This document shows, in pieces, positions 1 through 32,971 of a stretch of DNA of 32,971 nucleotides. Origin of the DNA: Deltaproteobacteria bacterium (GTDB lineage: Bacteria; Bdellovibrionota; FAC87; UBA2466); contig OMIX01000037.1 in assembly GCA_900299195.1 (NCBI GenBank), positions 1 through 32,971 of the forward strand. Direction: 5' to 3'. The notes under the pieces were generated by a model. The model was given only the letters and a program-made list of their open reading frames with translations. It did not search any database and was not told the DNA's origin. Within the stretch, counting starts at the first letter, position 1. Each line of letters begins with the position of its first letter. Both the position numbers and the translations under genes were made by a program.

Positions 1-80
1 AAGTCGCTGTGGCTCTTCTGGAAAAACTGAGCGAACTCAACCAAAATCAAAAAACAGAGCCGGGTCGAGAAGAAGAATAG
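1..80 (+). CDS. 3' end of an unidentified gene, cut by the window start
   Basis: The frame beginning at base 3 reads VAVALLEKLSELNQNQK and ends in EEE followed by TAG at 78-80. Only about 25 codons are visible, so the family cannot be named. The same codons, with more of the gene in front of them, occur at 4340-4525. There the text before them (PVESLEKLGMKRKV) resembles a helix-hairpin-helix tail, as in UvrC-like C-termini, but this is only an impression. This copy is probably attached to the intact gene upstream of the window, because the copy at 4.4 kb runs into a stop. Confidence 0.5.
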   Translation, partial: VAVALLEKLSELNQNQKTEPGREEE

Positions 81-81
81 A
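1..81. repeat. Outer direct repeat, left copy (identical to 4446-4526)
   Basis: Bases 1-81 match 4446-4526 exactly. The match stops at base 82 (a versus c). Because it already covers base 1, the repeat probably extends to the left of the window. It carries the last 25 codons and stop of a gene. The pair brackets about 4.36 kb of accessory DNA. Confidence 0.95.
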
Positions 82-123
82 ATATAACCACCCATTTCTG
101 GCCGAGCAGATAATAACGATATT

Positions 124-183
124 TAGAATTCATTGGTGATCGGTTAAGCGACAGTAAATCACGCGAAAGCCCTTTCTGGTAGG
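124..183 (+). repeat. Left arm of a 60-bp imperfect inverted repeat
   Basis: This stretch is the reverse complement of 2170-2228. Over the 55 aligned bases 130-183 I count 4 mismatches, with a 2-base indel outside them. The core includes ggtgatcggttaagcga and aaatcacgcgaaagcccttt. The arms enclose about 2.0 kb containing the ATPase gene, as terminal inverted repeats of a mobile element would, but no transposase is present between them. Confidence 0.85.
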
Positions 184-316
184 ACATTTACCTGGCCGCT
201 TTTGAACGAATTGGATACGTTCCTATAAAAACACTGTGAAAATTAGATGCTTCTCCATAAGTGGGGGCGAAGTAGCAGCGGTTTTAGGTTCGCAATTTTG
301 TACCAGGTAAATACCT
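182..316 (+). repeat. Dispersed repeat, copy A (short, internally deleted form)
   Basis: It begins with ggacatttacctgg (182-195) and ends with ccaggtaaatacc (303-315), which form short inverted ends. The interior from gccgctttt to gtgggggcgaagtag aligns by eye with the right third of copy B (from about 1932 to 2012) with scattered substitutions. The left two thirds of copy B are missing here. No open reading frame of note is present. I do not recognise the family. Confidence 0.6.
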
Positions 317-353
317 TTGGGGCAATCGTTGTAAGCCGGCTCTTAATTTTAAA

Positions 354-390
354 CACGGTTATACCGTGGATTATCATGATAATCCGTGGT
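354..390. promoter_or_regulatory. Double palindrome at the ATPase start, probable operator
   Basis: Two dyads lie side by side. The first is cacggt-tat-accgtg (354-368). The second is the perfect 18-bp palindrome ggattatcatgataatcc (368-385), with a further matching acc/ggt pair outside it (363-365 and 388-390). The second dyad ends 16 bases before the ATG at 402. This position suits an autoregulatory or toxin-antitoxin-like operator; that role is inferred. Confidence 0.6.
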
Positions 391-401
391 AGTATTGAGG
401 A

Positions 402-1553
402 ATGGTTGTTAAGAGAAAATTAGATCTCCGTTTAAAAACAAAAGAACGAACGTGCTTTCTATTTGGCCCGCGTGGGGTCGGGAAAACGACATTAATTCGG
501 GAAACCTTCACCCAACAATGTCTTGTGATTGATCTCTTAAGATCCCGAGAGTTCACCGATCTGTCCGCGGATCCGGGAATTCTCGAAGAGCTTTGCCGAG
601 GGCATAAATTTGTTATCATTGATGAGGTTCAACGAATTCCTGAACTGCTGAATGAAGTTCATCGCCTTATAGAAGAAAAGGGAATCCGATTCTTACTGAC
701 AGGCAGTAGTGCGCGAAAATTAAAACAGCAACATGCGAATATGTTGGGCGGAAGAGCTAGTTCTTTGAAACTTTTTCCCTTTCTGTTTACGGAAATCGGA
801 CAGGGATTCGATCTCTCAAGGGCTCTCCTCGTTGGAACTCTTCCTACTGTTTGGCTAAACCAAGATCCCATTGAAATTCTAGACGCGTACCTGACAACTT
901 ACCTGAAAGAGGAGATTACAGCAGAGGGACTGATTAGGAATCTACCTGCTTTTTCTAGATTTCTAAAAGTGAGTGCTTTGGCATCTGGAGAGCTGATCAA
1001 TTATGCTGCCATTGCCAGCGATGCCACAGTTAAGGAGACTACAGTCCGTTCTCACTTTCAAGTTCTAGAAGACACCTTGATTGGCTCTAGACTTGAACCC
1101 TTTGTAGAAAGTAAAAAGCGAAAAGCCATTGCCACGGAGAAATTTTTTTACTTTGATAATGGGGTACGGAATTTTATTCTGGGCATTGAGAGCTTGGATA
1201 GAAATAGTGATATCTACGGAAAATGCTTTGAAACTTTTATCTTTAATGAATTGAAGGCTTATCTTTCGTACAACCGAATCCATAAACCCCTCACCTTTTG
1301 GAGATCACGAAGTCAATTTGAAGTTGATTTTTTAATTGGCAACTCAATAGCTATCGAAGTAAAAGCCACCAAAAAAGTGACCGACAAGCACTTGAAGGGT
1401 CTTCGAGCTTTAGCTGAAGAGAATATCTTTAAAAGCTACTATCTCGTTTCTGAAGACCCCGTGACGAGAATAGTTAAAGAAGGTCACAACGAGTACTCTC
1501 TCATGCCATGGAATGTCTTTCTAACAAATTTATGGAATAAAAAAATTGGCTAA
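402..1553 (+). CDS. P-loop ATPase with C-terminal DUF4143-type domain
   Basis: The 383-residue protein starts with a short basic strand (MVVKRKLDLRL) and a Walker A motif GPRGVGKTT at residues 22-30. Walker B is FVIIDEVQRIP near 70-80, and a sensor-like LLTGSSARKL follows near 99. The C-terminal part has FEVDFLIG and AIEVKAT near 309-326, spaced like the E/D-xK core of a PD-(D/E)XK nuclease fold, as in the DUF4143 partner domain of this ATPase family. Length is normal for the family. The ATG at 402 has GAGG only one base upstream, which is tight, but the N-terminal text fits the family start. The gene lies alone inside the repeat-rich island and behind a large palindrome. Biological function of this family is poorly defined; some members look like defence or antitoxin-like cargo. 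The ATPase call is firm, the role unknown. Confidence 0.85.
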   Translation: MVVKRKLDLRLKTKERTCFLFGPRGVGKTTLIRETFTQQCLVIDLLRSREFTDLSADPGILEELCRGHKFVIIDEVQRIPELLNEVHRLIEEKGIRFLLTGSSARKLKQQHANMLGGRASSLKLFPFLFTEIGQGFDLSRALLVGTLPTVWLNQDPIEILDAYLTTYLKEEITAEGLIRNLPAFSRFLKVSALASGELINYAAIASDATVKETTVRSHFQVLEDTLIGSRLEPFVESKKRKAIATEKFFYFDNGVRNFILGIESLDRNSDIYGKCFETFIFNELKAYLSYNRIHKPLTFWRSRSQFEVDFLIGNSIAIEVKATKKVTDKHLKGLRALAEENIFKSYYLVSEDPVTRIVKEGHNEYSLMPWNVFLTNLWNKKIG

Positions 1554-1665
1554 TCACGAAGTTAAAGGTGTCGGACTCAAGAAACTACCTGGAACCCGTT
1601 AAATCAAGGATTCTTTCTAAATAGCGGCCGGCGGTCGATATCGGGTACAGACGAGTTCCCTTTCA

Positions 1666-2074
1666 AAGGACATTTACCAGGATTGATGAGAACTCAATGG
1701 CGTAGCCGCCTGACAGTGAAGTAAGTAGGAGCCTAATATTCTTGGATTGGGAATTAGATACTTAGAACTAATCGAAGAAATACGCTAGAAAAAGATGCAA
1801 AAGCGGAGCATGAAATATACCAGCAATAGCCTAAAGGCCGAAGTGGACAGGAGCCGGGGCCATGCCCATAGGAGCTATACCAACGGCTACTTTGGTGGGT
1901 AACGAAGGCTAGAAGCACCAGAGTGCAACGCCGTTTTTCAAACGAGATGGGCACGTTTTCATAGGGATACCATGAAAGTTTTAAAAGTCTTTCCAAAAAG
2001 TGGGAGCGAAGTAGTGGGAATCTCAATGGCAGATATTTTTTTTGGGGATTTAGAAGAATAGGTCCAGGTAAATA
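1666..2074 (+). repeat. Dispersed repeat, copy B (longest copy)
   Basis: It starts with aaggacatttaccagg and ends at ccaggtaaatac (2063-2074), about 409 bases with short inverted ends. Its left 111 bases (1666-1776) are identical to copy C at 4097-4207, and the match continues to 1785 with two substitutions. Its right part aligns with copy A. Local dyads occur inside, for example tttcat/atgaaa around 1955-1978. It has no clear coding content, so it could be a MITE-like or structured-RNA repeat, or a decayed insertion sequence. Confidence 0.75.
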
Positions 2075-2169
2075 CATTGTACTAAGACCATATCGGGATC
2101 GTACCACAGAAAAATATCTGACCGTGATGATACGAAGAGAAGCCTTCGACCCGAATAGACCCCATAAAC

Positions 2170-2228
2170 TCCTGCCAGAAAGGGCTTTCGCGTGATTTGC
2201 TTTCGCTTAACCGATCACCTATGAACTA
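2170..2228 (-). repeat. Right arm of the 60-bp imperfect inverted repeat
   Basis: This is the reverse complement partner of 124-183, with 4 mismatches in the 55-base core. It lies about 95 bases beyond the end of repeat copy B, whereas the left arm abuts copy A directly. Confidence 0.85.
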
Positions 2229-2311
2229 AAATTATAGCGAATAAAACTGTCTAACAAGCTGAGTTGTGCGGTTCCAAACCATAAGGTCGAGGCGGAGGTG
2301 TTCATTATAAG

Positions 2312-2350
2312 ATGAAATTTAACTATCTAGCCTTTATAATAATCAAATGA
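2312..2350 (+). CDS. 12-codon leader ORF overlapping the glycosyltransferase start
   Basis: ATG at 2312 encodes MKFNYLAFIIIK and stops at TGA 2348-2350. It overlaps the next ATG as ATGA (2347-2350). It has a good Shine-Dalgarno, GGAGGTG at 2294-2300, 11 bases upstream. The downstream gene has none of its own. This suggests translational coupling. It could equally be a chance arrangement or the relic of a longer N-terminus. Confidence 0.35.
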   Translation: MKFNYLAFIIIK

Positions 2351-4071
2351 ATTCATTTAAAGACACCCAATCGGGGAAACCATCAATTTGGGTCATGACA
2401 GTTTTAATGGCAACTTGCCTTCTACTGGTTGGTTTTTGGTTTATTGGAAAGGGATCTACTTTCATTGACGGACAAAGAGTATTTACCCTCTTCGATGATG
2501 CCATGATTTCCATGACCTATGCCAGAAACTTAGCTCACGGTCACGGCTTAGTATGGAACGCAGGAGAGTCTCCCGTTGAGGGCTACACGAACCCCCTTTG
2601 GACTATATGGTTGGCATTTTTGCATTTGTCCGGACTACCAGATGCACAGATGGGGTTTTTAGTCTCATTAAGTGGATTAATTATTTTAATAGCCAATATT
2701 TTTATTGTTGGCCTTCTTACCTACAATCTTAGCTTCAAATCGCGTCTCGCAACTCTGACTAGCATTTCACTAACTACATTTTGCTTTCCTATTATTTTTT
2801 GGACACTTAGAGGAATGGAGGTTGGCCTCCTCTCACTTTTAGTAAATTTAATCTTTTTAATAATCTTCAATTCGATTGAATCGTCCCGGAAATTACCCAC
2901 CGGATGGTTAACTCTTTTGATTGGGGCACTAGTCTTAACACGAATGGACGGCATCATTCTGATTTTGCCACTGATCTACTACGAATTCCGTCAACCCCAA
3001 AAAAATTTAAAAAACCCTATTTGGATTAGTTGTGTGACGGGGGGCATCGGTACACTCGTGATTCTTTGCATCTCGAGAAAAATTTATTATGGCGAATGGC
3101 TTCCCAACACATATTACTTAAAATTAACTGGTGTAAGCGGAATAATTAGATGGGGTCGAGGATTCGAATCACTGTATTCGACCTTCCAAACCTATCTAAG
3201 TATACCGGTTTTCCTAGTTTTAATTGCTGTTATATTCTCCAGAAAAATCTCCAGTAGCATACTTTGTTTGATTTCTTTTTTTATTTTTCAATGTATTTAC
3301 TCCGTTCATGTTGGTGGAGATGCTTGGGAGTGGTCAGGCATTACTAACCGTTACATCTCAGTTGCCCTACCCATTTTGTTTGTGCTTTGCGGATGGAGTA
3401 TCGGGACTTTTAGTAATTGGTTATCAATAAACAAAGGTTCATACAGCCTCACAGCTTATGCCCTAATCGTTGGGGTCTTTGGCCTAAACTTGTATTTACA
3501 TGGCAAAGATATGCGCCGTGTTTTTTGGGAGAGAGCTTTTGAAGTTGAACGTGATTTCGACCAATCTGCGATTGGTTTACATTTTAAAAAGCATGTTCGA
3601 ATCAGAGCCAGTGCTGGCGTATTTTCAGCTGGTAGCTTTTGTTACTTCTCGCATCTTAAATGTATAGATTTTCTTGGCAAAAGTGATAAGTACATTGCTC
3701 GTTTAACACCCGTCGGAACTGACTCTTTTACACCGGGCCACAACAAATCAGACTTTAATTTTACGATTAAAGTTCTAAAACCTGACATTATCATAGGATT
3801 ATATTCTGAACAGGCGCTATCAGATTTTTTAAAACAGAGTTCAGAGCCTCCTAGGTACCTAGCAATGAATCAATCTATTTGGTTAAAAGAAGGGCTAGCT
3901 TGGCCCAAAGATCTTTTTAATAGTTCAGGAATTAACAATGAAAAGTTTTCGGATGATGTTTTAGAAATAGTGGTTCAACTCAAGAAGCAAATGGAAAGAA
4001 ATGAAGCAATATTATCCCTAAAAAAACAAATCAAACAGTTTATCAATCCGTATATAGCTTACAGCGGCTGA
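2347..4071 (+). CDS. Polytopic GT-C-like glycosyltransferase
   Basis: This 574-residue inner-membrane protein has one membrane segment near residues 15-35 and then a long outer loop. The loop carries an acidic pair and an aromatic signature: FTLFDDAMISMTYARNLAHG, then EGYTNPLW. About ten more hydrophobic segments and a soluble C-terminal part from roughly residue 390 follow. The loop resembles polyprenyl-phosphate-sugar-dependent GT-C enzymes of the AftB-like/ArnT-like group, in which the Asp pair is catalytic. The donor and acceptor cannot be told. No Shine-Dalgarno precedes the ATG, but a leader ORF ends on it in an ATGA overlap. The gene sits inside the accessory island between repeat copies B and C, and its lower GC composition suits acquired surface-glycan cargo. 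Confidence 0.7.
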   Translation: MNSFKDTQSGKPSIWVMTVLMATCLLLVGFWFIGKGSTFIDGQRVFTLFDDAMISMTYARNLAHGHGLVWNAGESPVEGYTNPLWTIWLAFLHLSGLPDAQMGFLVSLSGLIILIANIFIVGLLTYNLSFKSRLATLTSISLTTFCFPIIFWTLRGMEVGLLSLLVNLIFLIIFNSIESSRKLPTGWLTLLIGALVLTRMDGIILILPLIYYEFRQPQKNLKNPIWISCVTGGIGTLVILCISRKIYYGEWLPNTYYLKLTGVSGIIRWGRGFESLYSTFQTYLSIPVFLVLIAVIFSRKISSSILCLISFFIFQCIYSVHVGGDAWEWSGITNRYISVALPILFVLCGWSIGTFSNWLSINKGSYSLTAYALIVGVFGLNLYLHGKDMRRVFWERAFEVERDFDQSAIGLHFKKHVRIRASAGVFSAGSFCYFSHLKCIDFLGKSDKYIARLTPVGTDSFTPGHNKSDFNFTIKVLKPDIIIGLYSEQALSDFLKQSSEPPRYLAMNQSIWLKEGLAWPKDLFNSSGINNEKFSDDVLEIVVQLKKQMERNEAILSLKKQIKQFINPYIAYSG

Positions 4072-4096
4072 GCTAGCCCCTCCTGGGACCATCAAT

Positions 4097-4216
4097 AAGG
4101 ACATTTACCAGGATTGATGAGAACTCAATGGCGTAGCCGCCTGACAGTGAAGTAAGTAGGAGCCTAATATTCTTGGATTGGGAATTAGATACTTAGAACT
4201 AATCGAAAAAATATGC
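4097..4216 (+). repeat. Dispersed repeat, copy C (left part only)
   Basis: Bases 4097-4207 are identical to 1666-1776, and 4208-4216 match 1777-1785 with two substitutions. The right half of the element, including the ccaggtaaatac end, is missing. The complete identity over 111 bases, while copy A has diverged, implies a recent duplication or gene conversion between copies B and C. Confidence 0.9.
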
Positions 4217-4294
4217 CTTGATACCCACCTTCAGAATTTGTGCTTCCTGCCCAGGACTTCTTTTAGTCTCTGCACCAAGCGTTGATTCAGGTAA

Positions 4295-4525
4295 GAACTT
4301 ACGTTTTTCTTCAGAAAACAGACATCGATCAATAATTTTTTTGGCCGCTTTCCGACTGAATGGGCGTTTCTCTTTTATACGGGGAACTTAGAATCTCTGA
4401 GCCAAGCCCCAGTGGAATCCCTAGAAAAATTGGGAATGAAAAGAAAAGTCGCTGTGGCTCTTCTGGAAAAACTGAGCGAACTCAACCAAAATCAAAAAAC
4501 AGAGCCGGGTCGAGAAGAAGAATAG
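4295..4525 (+). pseudogene. Truncated duplicate of the gene ending at base 80
   Basis: The frame is open from after a TAA at 4292-4294 to TAG at 4523-4525. From about 4340 it reads like real protein (FPTEWAFLFYTGNLESLSQ, then PVESLEKLGMKRK), and its last 25 codons equal those at 3-80. It has no credible start or Shine-Dalgarno. It is most simply the 3' remnant of the gene whose intact copy lies left of the window, separated from it by the island. Its stop falls 3 bases from the stop of the convergent gene at 4529, which probably preserves the ancestral junction. Confidence 0.6.
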
Positions 4526-4526
4526 A
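4446..4526. repeat. Outer direct repeat, right copy
   Basis: These 81 bases are identical to 1-81. They contain the duplicated gene end and its TAG, and lie just before the stop of the minus-strand gene at 4529. Confidence 0.95.
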
Positions 4527-4528
4527 CT

Positions 4529-5428
4529 CTATGAACGACCGATTCTGCGGACTCCCTCTCTTTTCTTCCTATCCAGATCGAGCCCTTTCCAAAAGGCATT
4601 CACACCGTCCAACATCTCTTTACCCGCTTGAATGAATTTCTCTTGGTCCAAATCCATCGAGAAAAAGGTCTCTTCTAACTCGTCCCAAGTGTGAGCCGCA
4701 TGTTGGTCTTCCACTTTATCGTGCCAAGTAAAAAAGGCGAGAGGCATCGAGGGACACTCCCGCTCTTTGAAAGCATGAAGGCCTGAGATTAGCTCTTTCC
4801 AAAAACCAGCCGCTGCCCAATTTTCAACAGCAAAACTCGCTCCTAGACCCACATGAGTATCATCCGATCCGTAAATTCGGGCTAACTCATCACAGAAAAA
4901 TAGGGTGGATTGAGTTCCATGTCGTCGTTTACCTACATCATTGAAAGTTAAACCCACATGAGAAATCATCCTTAACATCCATTCAAAATGCGCAGCTTTG
5001 AAAAAGAACGTTCCACCATCCACAGTCCCTTCTTCTTGAACGATATCTTTTTCTACGTCGGAGGCGCTATCCTCAGCCGTTTTCTTTTTAGTGGGTTTAA
5101 AAACGACTCCTAATTCATTCATTAAAATCTGTTTTGAAGCATGCATAGCTTCTAAAGTGGGGGCATTGATCGTTTTCTTGAGTTGAGCTTCAATGAAAAG
5201 GTTTGAAAACACCGAAAACTGTACCAAAAAATGTCTGACATCGTCTCGGTCGATTTGACCATTTTTAAACCAAGCACAAAACTGATTGTGAGTGATCACT
5301 TCGTGAGGAAGGATTTCCTTTTTTATTCTTTGTAGTAGTTCATGATATTCCTCGACTCTTTTTTGAGAAATTTCACCCTTTTTAACTTTGTCTAAGATTT
5401 CATGAGATACCGTTTCAGGAGCTTTCAT
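4529..5428 (-). CDS. Haem-oxygenase-fold (TenA/PqqC-like) putative iron-containing redox protein
   Basis: This 299-residue, mainly helical soluble protein has spaced acidic and His residues typical of the HDO/iron-containing redox enzyme group. They include MNELG near 103, HFEWMLRMISHVG near 145-160, FAVENWAAAGFW near 205-216 and FFTWHDKVEDQHAAHTWDEL near 235-255. In that group such residues hold a di-iron or bind a cofactor. The substrate is unknown. A Lys/Asp-rich insert (about 112-135) interrupts the domain. The gene follows hmgA after 4 bases, and its Shine-Dalgarno GAGGTGATGAT overlaps the hmgA stop, so the two are probably co-translated. A link to tyrosine/homogentisate breakdown is only contextual. 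Confidence 0.7.
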   Translation of the reverse strand: MKAPETVSHEILDKVKKGEISQKRVEEYHELLQRIKKEILPHEVITHNQFCAWFKNGQIDRDDVRHFLVQFSVFSNLFIEAQLKKTINAPTLEAMHASKQILMNELGVVFKPTKKKTAEDSASDVEKDIVQEEGTVDGGTFFFKAAHFEWMLRMISHVGLTFNDVGKRRHGTQSTLFFCDELARIYGSDDTHVGLGASFAVENWAAAGFWKELISGLHAFKERECPSMPLAFFTWHDKVEDQHAAHTWDELEETFFSMDLDQEKFIQAGKEMLDGVNAFWKGLDLDRKKREGVRRIGRS

Positions 5429-5432
5429 ATCA

Positions 5433-6734
5433 TCACCTCTTTTTGGGATCGAAATGGCTTTTCAGTCCGCGCCAAGAGCCCAAGTAGTCTTTTTGTCGAC
5501 TTGGAGTCGACAGAGCAAATGACGTCGGCACAAAGACCTGGTTACTTTCAAACATAAAAGCTAAAGTTTTATCAAGATATTGAGGATGGAGTTCGGCTTC
5601 CGTCGCTTTTTGAAATGCATCGGAATCAGGTCCATGAGCAGACATAGCGTTATGTAAACTTATTCCACCAGGAACAAACCCTTCCGGTTTAGCATCATAT
5701 TGACCGTAAATGAGCCCCATAAACTCACTCATGTAATTTCTATGATAATAAGGGGGTCTAAAAGTATCTTTAGCCACCATCCATCGGGCAGGAAAAATAA
5801 CAAAATCTACATTGGCCACCCCAGCAGTTTGGGTGGGAGAGGTTAAAACGGTAAAAATAGAGGGATCTGGGTGATCAAAACTGACCGTGTTAATCGTATT
5901 AAATAAAGTCAGATCGTATTTATAAGGAACATAATTACCCGCCCAAGCCACAACATCCAGGGGGGAATAGTTGATTTCTGATTCCCAAAGTCCGCCCTGA
6001 AATTTGGTGATCAATTTAAACTTACCTGCTTTGTCTTCGTAAGCGGCCACTGGCGAAAGAAAATGTCTGGGATTAGCTAAACCATTAGCTCCAATGGGGC
6101 CCAAACCGGGTAAACGAAAATGAGCTCCATAGTTCTCACAAAGGTAGCCATCGGCCGTTTTACCTAAAGGCGAAGCCTGAAATTTCATTCCCCTTGGAAT
6201 GACCGCAATTTCGCTAGGTTTCACCGTTAAATCGCCACATTCTGTTTTCAGTAAAACGTCTCCAGAACGAGGGACAAAAAGTAACTCACCGTCTGAATTG
6301 TAAAAATACCGATGGGTCATCGGTTGATTCATAAAATAAACATGAGCTGCACAACCGGAATGATGCGAAACATGGCCATTACCCACCATCGTAATGAGCC
6401 CATCGATAAAATCGGTGGGTTGGGTAGGGGATGGAATGGGATCCCATCTCATCTGGTTAGGCGATGCCCTTTCGTCCAAAAACGGCGACGTTTTTAAAAG
6501 CTGTGAATGAATGGGTTGAAAAGCCTCATGCAAAACCGAGGGACGGATACGATAAAACCAAGTCTTTTGGTTCTCATTTCGCGGTGCTGTAAAAGCAGTC
6601 CCGCTTAACTGTTCAGCGTACAGCCCATAAGGAGGACGTTGGGGAGAATTTTGCCCGTGGGGTAAAGCGGATGGCAAAGCTTCAGACTCAAAATGGTTGC
6701 CAAATCCAGAAAAATATTTAAGTTCAGAGGCCAT
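5433..6734 (-). CDS. hmgA: Homogentisate 1,2-dioxygenase
   Basis: The 433-residue protein opens homogentisate to maleylacetoacetate in tyrosine and phenylalanine degradation. It begins with the family text SGFGNHFESEALPSALP and is full length for the family. The non-haem iron ligands are visible as HRNYMSE (His331, Glu337) and SAHGPD (His367), with the same spacing as human His335, Glu341 and His371. The ATG at 6734 has only a weak purine-rich stretch upstream. The gene is first in a two-gene minus-strand operon with the haem-oxygenase-fold protein. The next enzymes of the pathway (maiA, fahA) are not in the window. A pterin carbinolamine dehydratase at 24.1-24.4 kb would serve the start of the same pathway, which is a functional but not a physical link. 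Confidence 0.97.
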   Translation of the reverse strand: MASELKYFSGFGNHFESEALPSALPHGQNSPQRPPYGLYAEQLSGTAFTAPRNENQKTWFYRIRPSVLHEAFQPIHSQLLKTSPFLDERASPNQMRWDPIPSPTQPTDFIDGLITMVGNGHVSHHSGCAAHVYFMNQPMTHRYFYNSDGELLFVPRSGDVLLKTECGDLTVKPSEIAVIPRGMKFQASPLGKTADGYLCENYGAHFRLPGLGPIGANGLANPRHFLSPVAAYEDKAGKFKLITKFQGGLWESEINYSPLDVVAWAGNYVPYKYDLTLFNTINTVSFDHPDPSIFTVLTSPTQTAGVANVDFVIFPARWMVAKDTFRPPYYHRNYMSEFMGLIYGQYDAKPEGFVPGGISLHNAMSAHGPDSDAFQKATEAELHPQYLDKTLAFMFESNQVFVPTSFALSTPSRQKDYLGSWRGLKSHFDPKKR

Positions 6735-15568: not shown

Positions 15569-17170
15569 ATGAAAATTAAAATACGGATATTAAGTCCCTT
15601 GTTTCTATTGATAACTCTTCTCATAGGCGTCGGGTTGAGAGGGGCCGGATTGTTCAACCATGTAACCTACATTGATGAAATTCTTTTACTTACTAAAGGA
15701 CAACTTATTGTTAGCGAGCAAGATTTAACAGCAGAGTCTCTGCTAGGATATGTGTACAAGATATTCATTTCAAAAACTACTAGTTACGGCCCATTTCAAG
15801 TGTTGATCGGTAGATTAATCATCGGGGATGATATGTTCAGCTTGCGGGCCTTGAATATACTAAGGTCGATCTCATTTGTATTATCCACTGCAGCACTGTT
15901 CTTATTTTCCCATTTGAGTTTTGTTTTCTCATCAAGAAAAACTTCGGGCCCAATGTTATTGGTTTGTGGTGTCTTTGCATGTCAAATGCTCCAATGGTTA
16001 AATGCAAAGCAAGCCCACAGTTATGCAGCTGGACCCTTTGCTATGTTATTGAGTTTAGAAATTTGGATTTTGTTTTTAAAAAACCCAACCTACAAGAAAA
16101 CAATTCTTTTTGTTGTAGCCTCTAGTATTTTGTGTCTTTTTCAATACCAAGTTGTGCTTTTTGTTGTGGCAATGGCAATCACCGGTATTTTTTTATGTTC
16201 AAAAAATTACTGCCGTTTACCCAAAAAAAATCTCATTCTACTTTCAGGCTTTTTATTATTACTTTTTTCAGCGGTCTTAGTTTCGGTTCTTTCAAAATTG
16301 AAGGGAGAACTGATGTATCCTTATTGGATAGTATCAGGACCATCAGCGAGCGGATTACATATTCAGGCCCTTAAGGCACTTCTCAAGAATTTGTTTCATG
16401 TTTTTGTGGTTTGCCATTTGTTTTTTTTCAATGGTGAAAATATTGTTGTGGCTATTTTAGGTATTGGGTTATTTTTTTGGGGAGTTTATTATTTAATCAA
16501 GGAATACAAAAATAATATTTGCCCTGAAACCTTTGCATTTGGAAGTCTCTTTTGTTTTTTGCTTTTGTGGATTTTTTCTTTTCTGGTCGGAAAAACCCCT
16601 GTTTCTCAAACTCGGCACTGTATGATTTTTTTAGCACCCATTTTATTGCTTGAACTGAGAGGGCTTTTGGCTCTAACCGAAAAAATAAAAAAATCGAGTT
16701 TTGAGTATGCTCTCATCGGCGGATTGATAGCCATTTTGAGTGTTACTGTTTTCAGATTACCTAACTATTTAGAGGCGAGCAAAGAAGTGTTCGATGTGGA
16801 TCTACTCAAAAGCTTACTTAAAGAACATCAGGTTAAAAAAATAGTTGCTTGGGATTATGACTATTCCAAACTACGTCTTTTTGGAAAAGGGCATTTTAAT
16901 CCTGAGAATATGCTCTGGAGATGGAATGGACAGATTAATCCTATGCCTGAGTCTCGAGTGGCTTTGGTTTCTTTAGGTAGCTCCTATCCTGCTTTTGAAA
17001 AAAATGATAATCGAATTGACCATAAAGAAGTATGGGTTGAAAGAATCTATCAAACTCAGAAAGATTTTGATTATGAGCCAGCAAAGGAATATTCGTATGG
17101 TGCTAATGTCTTTAAAATATGGCTTATTAATTCAGCCCAAATTCGCTTTGAGCACGAGAAGCCTAGTTAG
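15569..17170 (+). CDS. Polytopic membrane protein, GT-C glycosyltransferase-like
   Basis: The 533-residue protein has about 11 membrane segments and a soluble C-terminal part from about residue 400. The first outer loop has NHVTYIDEILL, an acidic pair in the position of the catalytic Asp/Glu of PMT/ArnT-type GT-C enzymes. The long loop before helix 2 and the QWLNAKQAHSYAAGPFAM text are also typical. The donor is presumably a polyprenyl-phosphate sugar. The acceptor is unknown. No Shine-Dalgarno is evident before the ATG. It stands alone, with only a weak 6-bp hairpin over its stop codon. Confidence 0.6.
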   Translation: MKIKIRILSPLFLLITLLIGVGLRGAGLFNHVTYIDEILLLTKGQLIVSEQDLTAESLLGYVYKIFISKTTSYGPFQVLIGRLIIGDDMFSLRALNILRSISFVLSTAALFLFSHLSFVFSSRKTSGPMLLVCGVFACQMLQWLNAKQAHSYAAGPFAMLLSLEIWILFLKNPTYKKTILFVVASSILCLFQYQVVLFVVAMAITGIFLCSKNYCRLPKKNLILLSGFLLLLFSAVLVSVLSKLKGELMYPYWIVSGPSASGLHIQALKALLKNLFHVFVVCHLFFFNGENIVVAILGIGLFFWGVYYLIKEYKNNICPETFAFGSLFCFLLLWIFSFLVGKTPVSQTRHCMIFLAPILLLELRGLLALTEKIKKSSFEYALIGGLIAILSVTVFRLPNYLEASKEVFDVDLLKSLLKEHQVKKIVAWDYDYSKLRLFGKGHFNPENMLWRWNGQINPMPESRVALVSLGSSYPAFEKNDNRIDHKEVWVERIYQTQKDFDYEPAKEYSYGANVFKIWLINSAQIRFEHEKPS

Positions 17171-32902: not shown

Positions 32903-32971
32903 GGGCGGTTAGCTCAGCTGGATAGAGCACATGGCTTCGAACCATGGGGTCAGGGGTTCGACTCCCTTACC
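32903..32971 (+). tRNA. tRNA-Arg (anticodon UCG), 3' end cut by the window
   Basis: Acceptor strand GGGCGGT (32903-32909), D-arm GCTC...GAGC, anticodon stem CATGG/CCATG with loop CTTCGAA, hence anticodon UCG reading CGA, then T-arm AGGGG-TTCGACT-CCCTT. A at position 20 and C at 35 are the known Arg identity bases. The last few acceptor bases and CCA lie beyond the window. Confidence 0.93.

Follow-up and report, generated by a model that had tools for sequence, protein, structure and literature searches.

A duplicated uvrC end brackets a possible fragment of an Xer/dif-type cassette array in a Bdellovibrionales genome

The stretch of DNA analysed here (the window) is the complete contig C37, 32,971 nt long, of assembly G000, a fragmented metagenome-assembled genome; the named genomes closest to it are Bdellovibrionales MAGs, including UBA2466 and Baikal-deep-G133. 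Close to its left end, the same gene end occurs twice, on either side of an ATPase gene, a membrane-protein gene and repeats. What kind of DNA is enclosed by this duplication, and how did it come to lie behind that gene?

The duplicated uvrC end and the empty site in related genomes

The identity of the two gene ends, claimed in the earlier note for 1-81 and 4446-4526, was confirmed at 100%, with zero mismatches, and proved to be longer. The right copy reaches left to 4385, making a repeat of 142 bp (4385-4526) rather than 81; the start of the contig falls within the left copy, which left only 81 bp visible at first. The repeat comprises about 46 codons of the 3' end of the gene, the stop codon and 1 nt, and its identity is far beyond chance. 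The gene is uvrC, a DNA-repair gene, as recognised from the reading frame on contig C13 (Pfam UvrC_RNaseH_dom and HHH_5). C13 carries uvrC without its last codons and stop; its last 91 nt equal window positions 4385-4475, and its last 30 nt equal the first 30 nt of C37. This 30-mer occurs in three places only in the whole of G000 (the end of C13, C37:1 and C37:4446). These data are consistent with the left copy being attached to the intact uvrC on C13, as the earlier note required, through a join that rests on 30 nt. A foreign origin of the uvrC copy was rejected, since the two copies are identical, whereas congeners differ from them by about 25-30% (about 70-77% identity across the same stretch).

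The earlier note had also proposed looking for an empty site, and such a version is present in related genomes. In G004 and G001, uvrC runs directly into a convergent PqqC/TenA-like gene, with the two stop codons 8 nt apart in G004, and the two genes are likewise adjacent in G002. The right uvrC copy of the window occupies the ancestral place, because the same PqqC-like gene lies 3 nt away. In G003, a different insertion of ~3 kb lies exactly at the uvrC/PqqC-like junction (L058:7255-10257, contig C78 of G003). It encodes, on the other strand, a 489-aa membrane protein and a family-2 glycosyltransferase, and it is accompanied by no duplication of uvrC or of the target. The junction of these two conserved, convergent genes has thus received two independent insertions within one genus.

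At the opposite end of the window, positions 32907-32971 resemble a tRNA gene truncated where the contig stops (GGTTAGCTCAGCTGGATAGAGCA ... GGTTCGACTCCC). ARAGORN detected no tRNA serving as an integration site in the window.

Genes, repeats and halves of dif-like sites within the island

The features of the island, about 4.3 kb of acquired DNA, are collected in the table below. Its contents had been described in the earlier note as an ATPase, a GT-C glycosyltransferase and repeats, and most of this description stands. The ATPase is 35% identical to one on contig C71, which likewise lies near a half-site of type D; its phage relatives are only distant (21-29% identity, in unannotated records). 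The membrane protein is possibly a GT-C glycosyltransferase, an assignment left unconfirmed by searches that returned no Pfam, NCBIfam or PDB match and no relative of solved structure; it is unrelated to the 533-aa membrane protein encoded at 15569-17170. No recombinase ORF was found in 82-4384, in agreement with the earlier note. A genome-wide search, which covered tyrosine recombinases (PF00589), found three in G000, all encoded elsewhere: XerD on C91, an XerC-like protein on C81 and a 397-aa Xer-like protein on C31. Searches for plasmid DNA matching the island, and for known RNA families in window positions 1-6000, gave no match.

Features of the island and of the uvrC repeats that flank it
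Feature	Position	Strand	Basis or copies elsewhere
uvrC 3' end, left repeat copy, cut by contig end	1..81	+	identity to 4446-4526; 30-nt overlap with C13
Left half (type F) of dif-like cassette site	82..130	+	copies G004:C114:1-40, G000:C62:331-373
ATPase module inside core of F-D site	131..2233	.	removal restores unoccupied site
AAA_14-DUF4143 ATPase	402..1553	+	Pfam PF13173 and PF13635; PADLOC PDC-S01 models
MITE-like repeat, ~400 nt, apparently full copy	1666..2078	+	
dif-like core AACTAAAATTATAGCGAATAAA	2224..2245	+	
Right half (type D) of cassette site	2234..2312	+	copies C71, C43, G004:C142, G004:C183
574-aa multi-pass membrane protein	2347..4071	+	ORF
Right half (type E), reversed	4045..4096	-	model match E 2.3e-5
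DNA without match elsewhere in the genome, ending TATACGGGG at uvrC repeat	4217..4384	.	
uvrC 3' end, right copy, 142 bp, ancestral position, 3 nt from PqqC-like gene	4385..4526	+	

Similarity searches of G000 against itself showed that much of the non-coding island DNA recurs elsewhere in the genome, and that two kinds of repeats are mixed in it. One is a MITE-like repeat with the ends GGACATTTACCTGG/CCAGGTAAATACC, present as the copy listed in the table, a shortened copy (184-318) and a partial copy (4097-4216); it has relatives on contigs C22 and C47 and in G001 and G002, and no Rfam match. The other consists of halves of recombination sites. The repeats, treated in the earlier note as incidental, are thus not so, and point to the origin of this DNA.

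The half-sites are read outward from a common 22-nt core, AACTAAAATTATAGC(G/T)AATAAA, with two types on the left (F and G) and two on the right (D and E). These types, like the "truncated" left end discussed below, were judged by eye and are less certain than the 142-bp repeat. The core at 2224-2245 equals, save for one base, the core found upstream of the Xer-like gene on C31. The ATPase module has inverted ends of 66 nt (119-184 and 2170-2235), and joining position 130 to 2234 yields an F-core-D site that matches the start of contig C142 of G004, an unoccupied version; the module is thus lodged within the core of a site of this kind. Between the D and E halves lies the membrane-protein gene. 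Copies of the E half occur four times on C43 and once on C114 of G004, and two full-length members in G000, both on C43, align along their whole length. The dif-like core is interrupted by IS1182-type insertions on C62 and C71 (L035:271-433 and L033:2689-3487), with TTAT or ATTAT at their junctions; that on C62 was recognised by the same end sequence as on C71. No viral contigs carrying D or E sequences were found.

A family of exchanging sites and a third Xer-like recombinase

The sites are most numerous in G001, where the core pattern gave 29 matches compared with 2 for the control. Extraction from this genome yielded 26 sites, most of them near-identical repeats of ~127 nt that start with ACGGATA and end with TATACG. 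Between neighbouring sites there are mostly one or two accessory genes, and many contigs terminate in such a site; both orientations occur within one contig (C98 of G001). A covariance model built from the sites finds the E site of the window (E 2.3e-5 over 198 kb), a site on C109 of G000 and three sites of G002. The same model recovers the recombinase-adjacent sites of G002 and G004 at E 0.002-0.003, and that of G000 at only E 0.24. Contig C109 starts with an Illumina P5 adapter (L144:1-40), and its left end is not genomic.

All four combinations of halves (F-D, F-E, G-D and G-E) exist in G000 and G004. In G001, one kind of left half is combined with four kinds of right half, which differ in sequence, and the switch falls exactly behind the core. 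The mean r2 between polymorphic positions was 0.20 within left halves and 0.27 within right halves, compared with 0.05 across the core. With matched distances (5-45 nt), the values were 0.20 within halves and 0.10 across. This drop in linkage supports recombination at the core, though not decisively, because the difference is small at 14-30 nt (0.18 within and 0.155 across).

The Xer-like gene of the C31 type is present in 14 of the 15 genomes of the order, with 58-84% identity outside G000. In G000, it is preceded by a dif-like palindrome, TTATTAGTGATAA-CTAAAA-TTATAGCTAATAA, and the upstream core was found in 13 of the 14 genomes with the gene, over two families; the palindrome lies 77-134 nt from the start codon in the genomes measured. 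Within the order, the gene is missing from G003 alone, and no cassette site could be recognised there either. In G005 and others, the gene and its site are present but cassettes were not seen; the gene therefore probably serves some other, housekeeping-like function, of which the cassettes make use. The dif site of Bdellovibrio bacteriovorus was not found in these genomes at 3 mismatches or fewer.

Origin of the island and its relation to known systems

On balance, we lean towards reading the island as a fragment of an Xer/dif-type cassette array, served by a recombinase acting in trans and inserted with a duplication of 142 bp. This reading draws on four observations: the core is shared, half-sites are exchanged, the site of the ATPase module exists in an unoccupied version, and the uvrC locus is empty in congeners. 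The array would have been built by site-specific recombination at the ~127-nt sites with their dif-like core, catalysed most likely by the 397-aa protein encoded on C31. The entry of the fragment behind uvrC would not have been site-specific; it may have proceeded through a staggered break, or through a circle with the uvrC end that integrated by a single crossover, copying 142 bp of the target and leaving uvrC intact. At the left junction, the uvrC end is followed by an F half that apparently lacks its outer 12 or so nt, and at the right junction unmatched DNA is followed by TATACGG, GG and the 142-bp uvrC piece. Three observations favour an insertion without site specificity: the ragged look of the left end, the lack of a core in the 142 bp, and the G003 insertion, which came without duplication. 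The mixed orientation of sites within one contig, unlike that of integrons, counts against the array reading.

On C43 of G000 (42531-42739; L030:12532-12740), an intact cassette site with its TATACGG end is followed directly by 62 nt of the 3' part of a tRNA-Gly(CCC) gene, identical to the intact gene at C31:33032-33107. Given this piece and the TATACGG before the right uvrC copy, the right end of the island may not be random.

Among the readings offered in the earlier note was a decayed or non-autonomous integrative element. In the form weighed here, such an element would have used the 3' end of uvrC as its att site, with the recombinase encoded elsewhere and the 142-bp repeats as attL and attR. 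As in elements integrated into gene 3' ends, the insertion lies between two copies of a gene end, and the gene itself is intact (by the 30-nt join to C13); together with the displaced 3' end at the far side and the empty site in congeners, this is the classic layout of such elements. The tRNA-Gly piece beside the C43 cassette site is a second gene-end copy near array DNA, and 2 nt before the right uvrC copy stands TATACGG, the sequence with which known sites end on their outer side. Nevertheless, we consider this origin unlikely: the island holds no recombinase, the tyrosine recombinases of G000 being on C31, C81 and C91; the 142 bp, which are longer than usual att cores, contain neither a dif-like core nor a recognisable att core; the left end apparently lies inside a truncated site half; and the neighbouring G003 insertion at the same junction has no duplication. 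Of that reading, the insertion behind uvrC is supported, as is the empty site in related genomes; the role of the uvrC end as att site is not supported.

Just as improbable, in our view, is that the ~127-nt repeats are MITE-type elements spread between genes and the island ordinary repeat-rich accessory DNA. A weak terminal inversion (CGGATA/CGTATA), the occurrence in both orientations and the dispersed single copies in G000 would fit such elements, and the core shared with the Xer-like gene would mean that the element merely contains or targets that site. However, MITE-type spread does not agree with half-sites exchanged exactly behind the core, with the conservation of the core upstream of the Xer-like gene in genomes that lack the repeats, or with the array spacing of sites by one or two genes. 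Least likely of all is an assembly artefact, in which repeats would have led to a chimeric join, or strains that carry the island would have been mixed with strains that lack it. The window does begin inside a repeat, contigs of G000 overlap by varying lengths and one, C109, starts with an adapter. However, an artefact needs two independent false junctions with uvrC, congeners place the right copy exactly at the ancestral site, and the assembly has only one other uvrC end.

Bacteria are known to keep and shuffle banks of single genes mainly by means of integrons and dif modules. The cassettes described here share with chromosomal integrons (IntI/attI/attC) a recombinase gene with an adjacent site, mostly one-gene cassettes and conserved sites. 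They differ in that the core lies in the middle of the site, orientation is mixed and the recombinase gene was not seen next to an array. We rejected the integron reading on the type of integrase and the ends of the sites: the third Xer-like protein scores 25 bits against TIGR02249, with a cut-off of 265, and the sites have ACGGATA/TATACG ends and occur in both orientations, whereas attC sites have RYYYAAC/GTTRRRY ends and one orientation.

In dif (pdif) modules of Acinetobacter plasmids and chromosomes, accessory genes lie between dif-like sites (PMC6449649, PMC12907356). Both systems have sites of the ATAA-N6-TTAT type (here ATAA-CTAAAA-TTAT beside the Xer-like gene, and GTAA-N6-TTAT or related in cassette cores), linear arrays of several modules and shuffling of modules, for which the half-site combinations and the lower linkage across the core are indirect, sequence-level evidence here. 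Insertion sequences sit at the sites in both, of the IS1202 family at pdif sites (PMC10132070) and of the IS1182 type here. In contrast to the 28-bp sites of dif modules, those described here are ~127 nt long with conserved arms, and they occur in a different phylum. Dif modules recombine through XerC and XerD, whereas in G000, which also has XerC and XerD homologues, the cassette core matches the site beside the third recombinase instead of an XerCD dif. The single-recombinase systems XerS/difSL and XerH/difH (PMC2731167) are alike in having an Xer-like gene linked to its own dif-like palindrome; they differ from the present case, in which XerC and XerD homologues are present too and the genus has cassettes that share the core.

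We regard the chances as evenly balanced that freshwater Bdellovibrionales possess an integron-like cassette system with an evolutionary origin separate from that of IntI integrons, and that the island in the window is one array fragment of this system. It would combine a third Xer-like recombinase, dedicated to it and equipped with a dif-like attachment site of its own, with cassette sites of ~127 nt, which exchange their halves and carry single accessory genes. Searches of the literature for uvrC as a hotspot of integration, or for arrays of this kind in Bdellovibrionota, gave nothing fitting, and our analysis suggests a system not yet described in these bacteria. If true, gene banks would have arisen more than once, here in a different phylum and with an Xer-type recombinase that is nearly universal in its order, and one could test directly how a housekeeping-like Xer/dif pair becomes a cassette machine.
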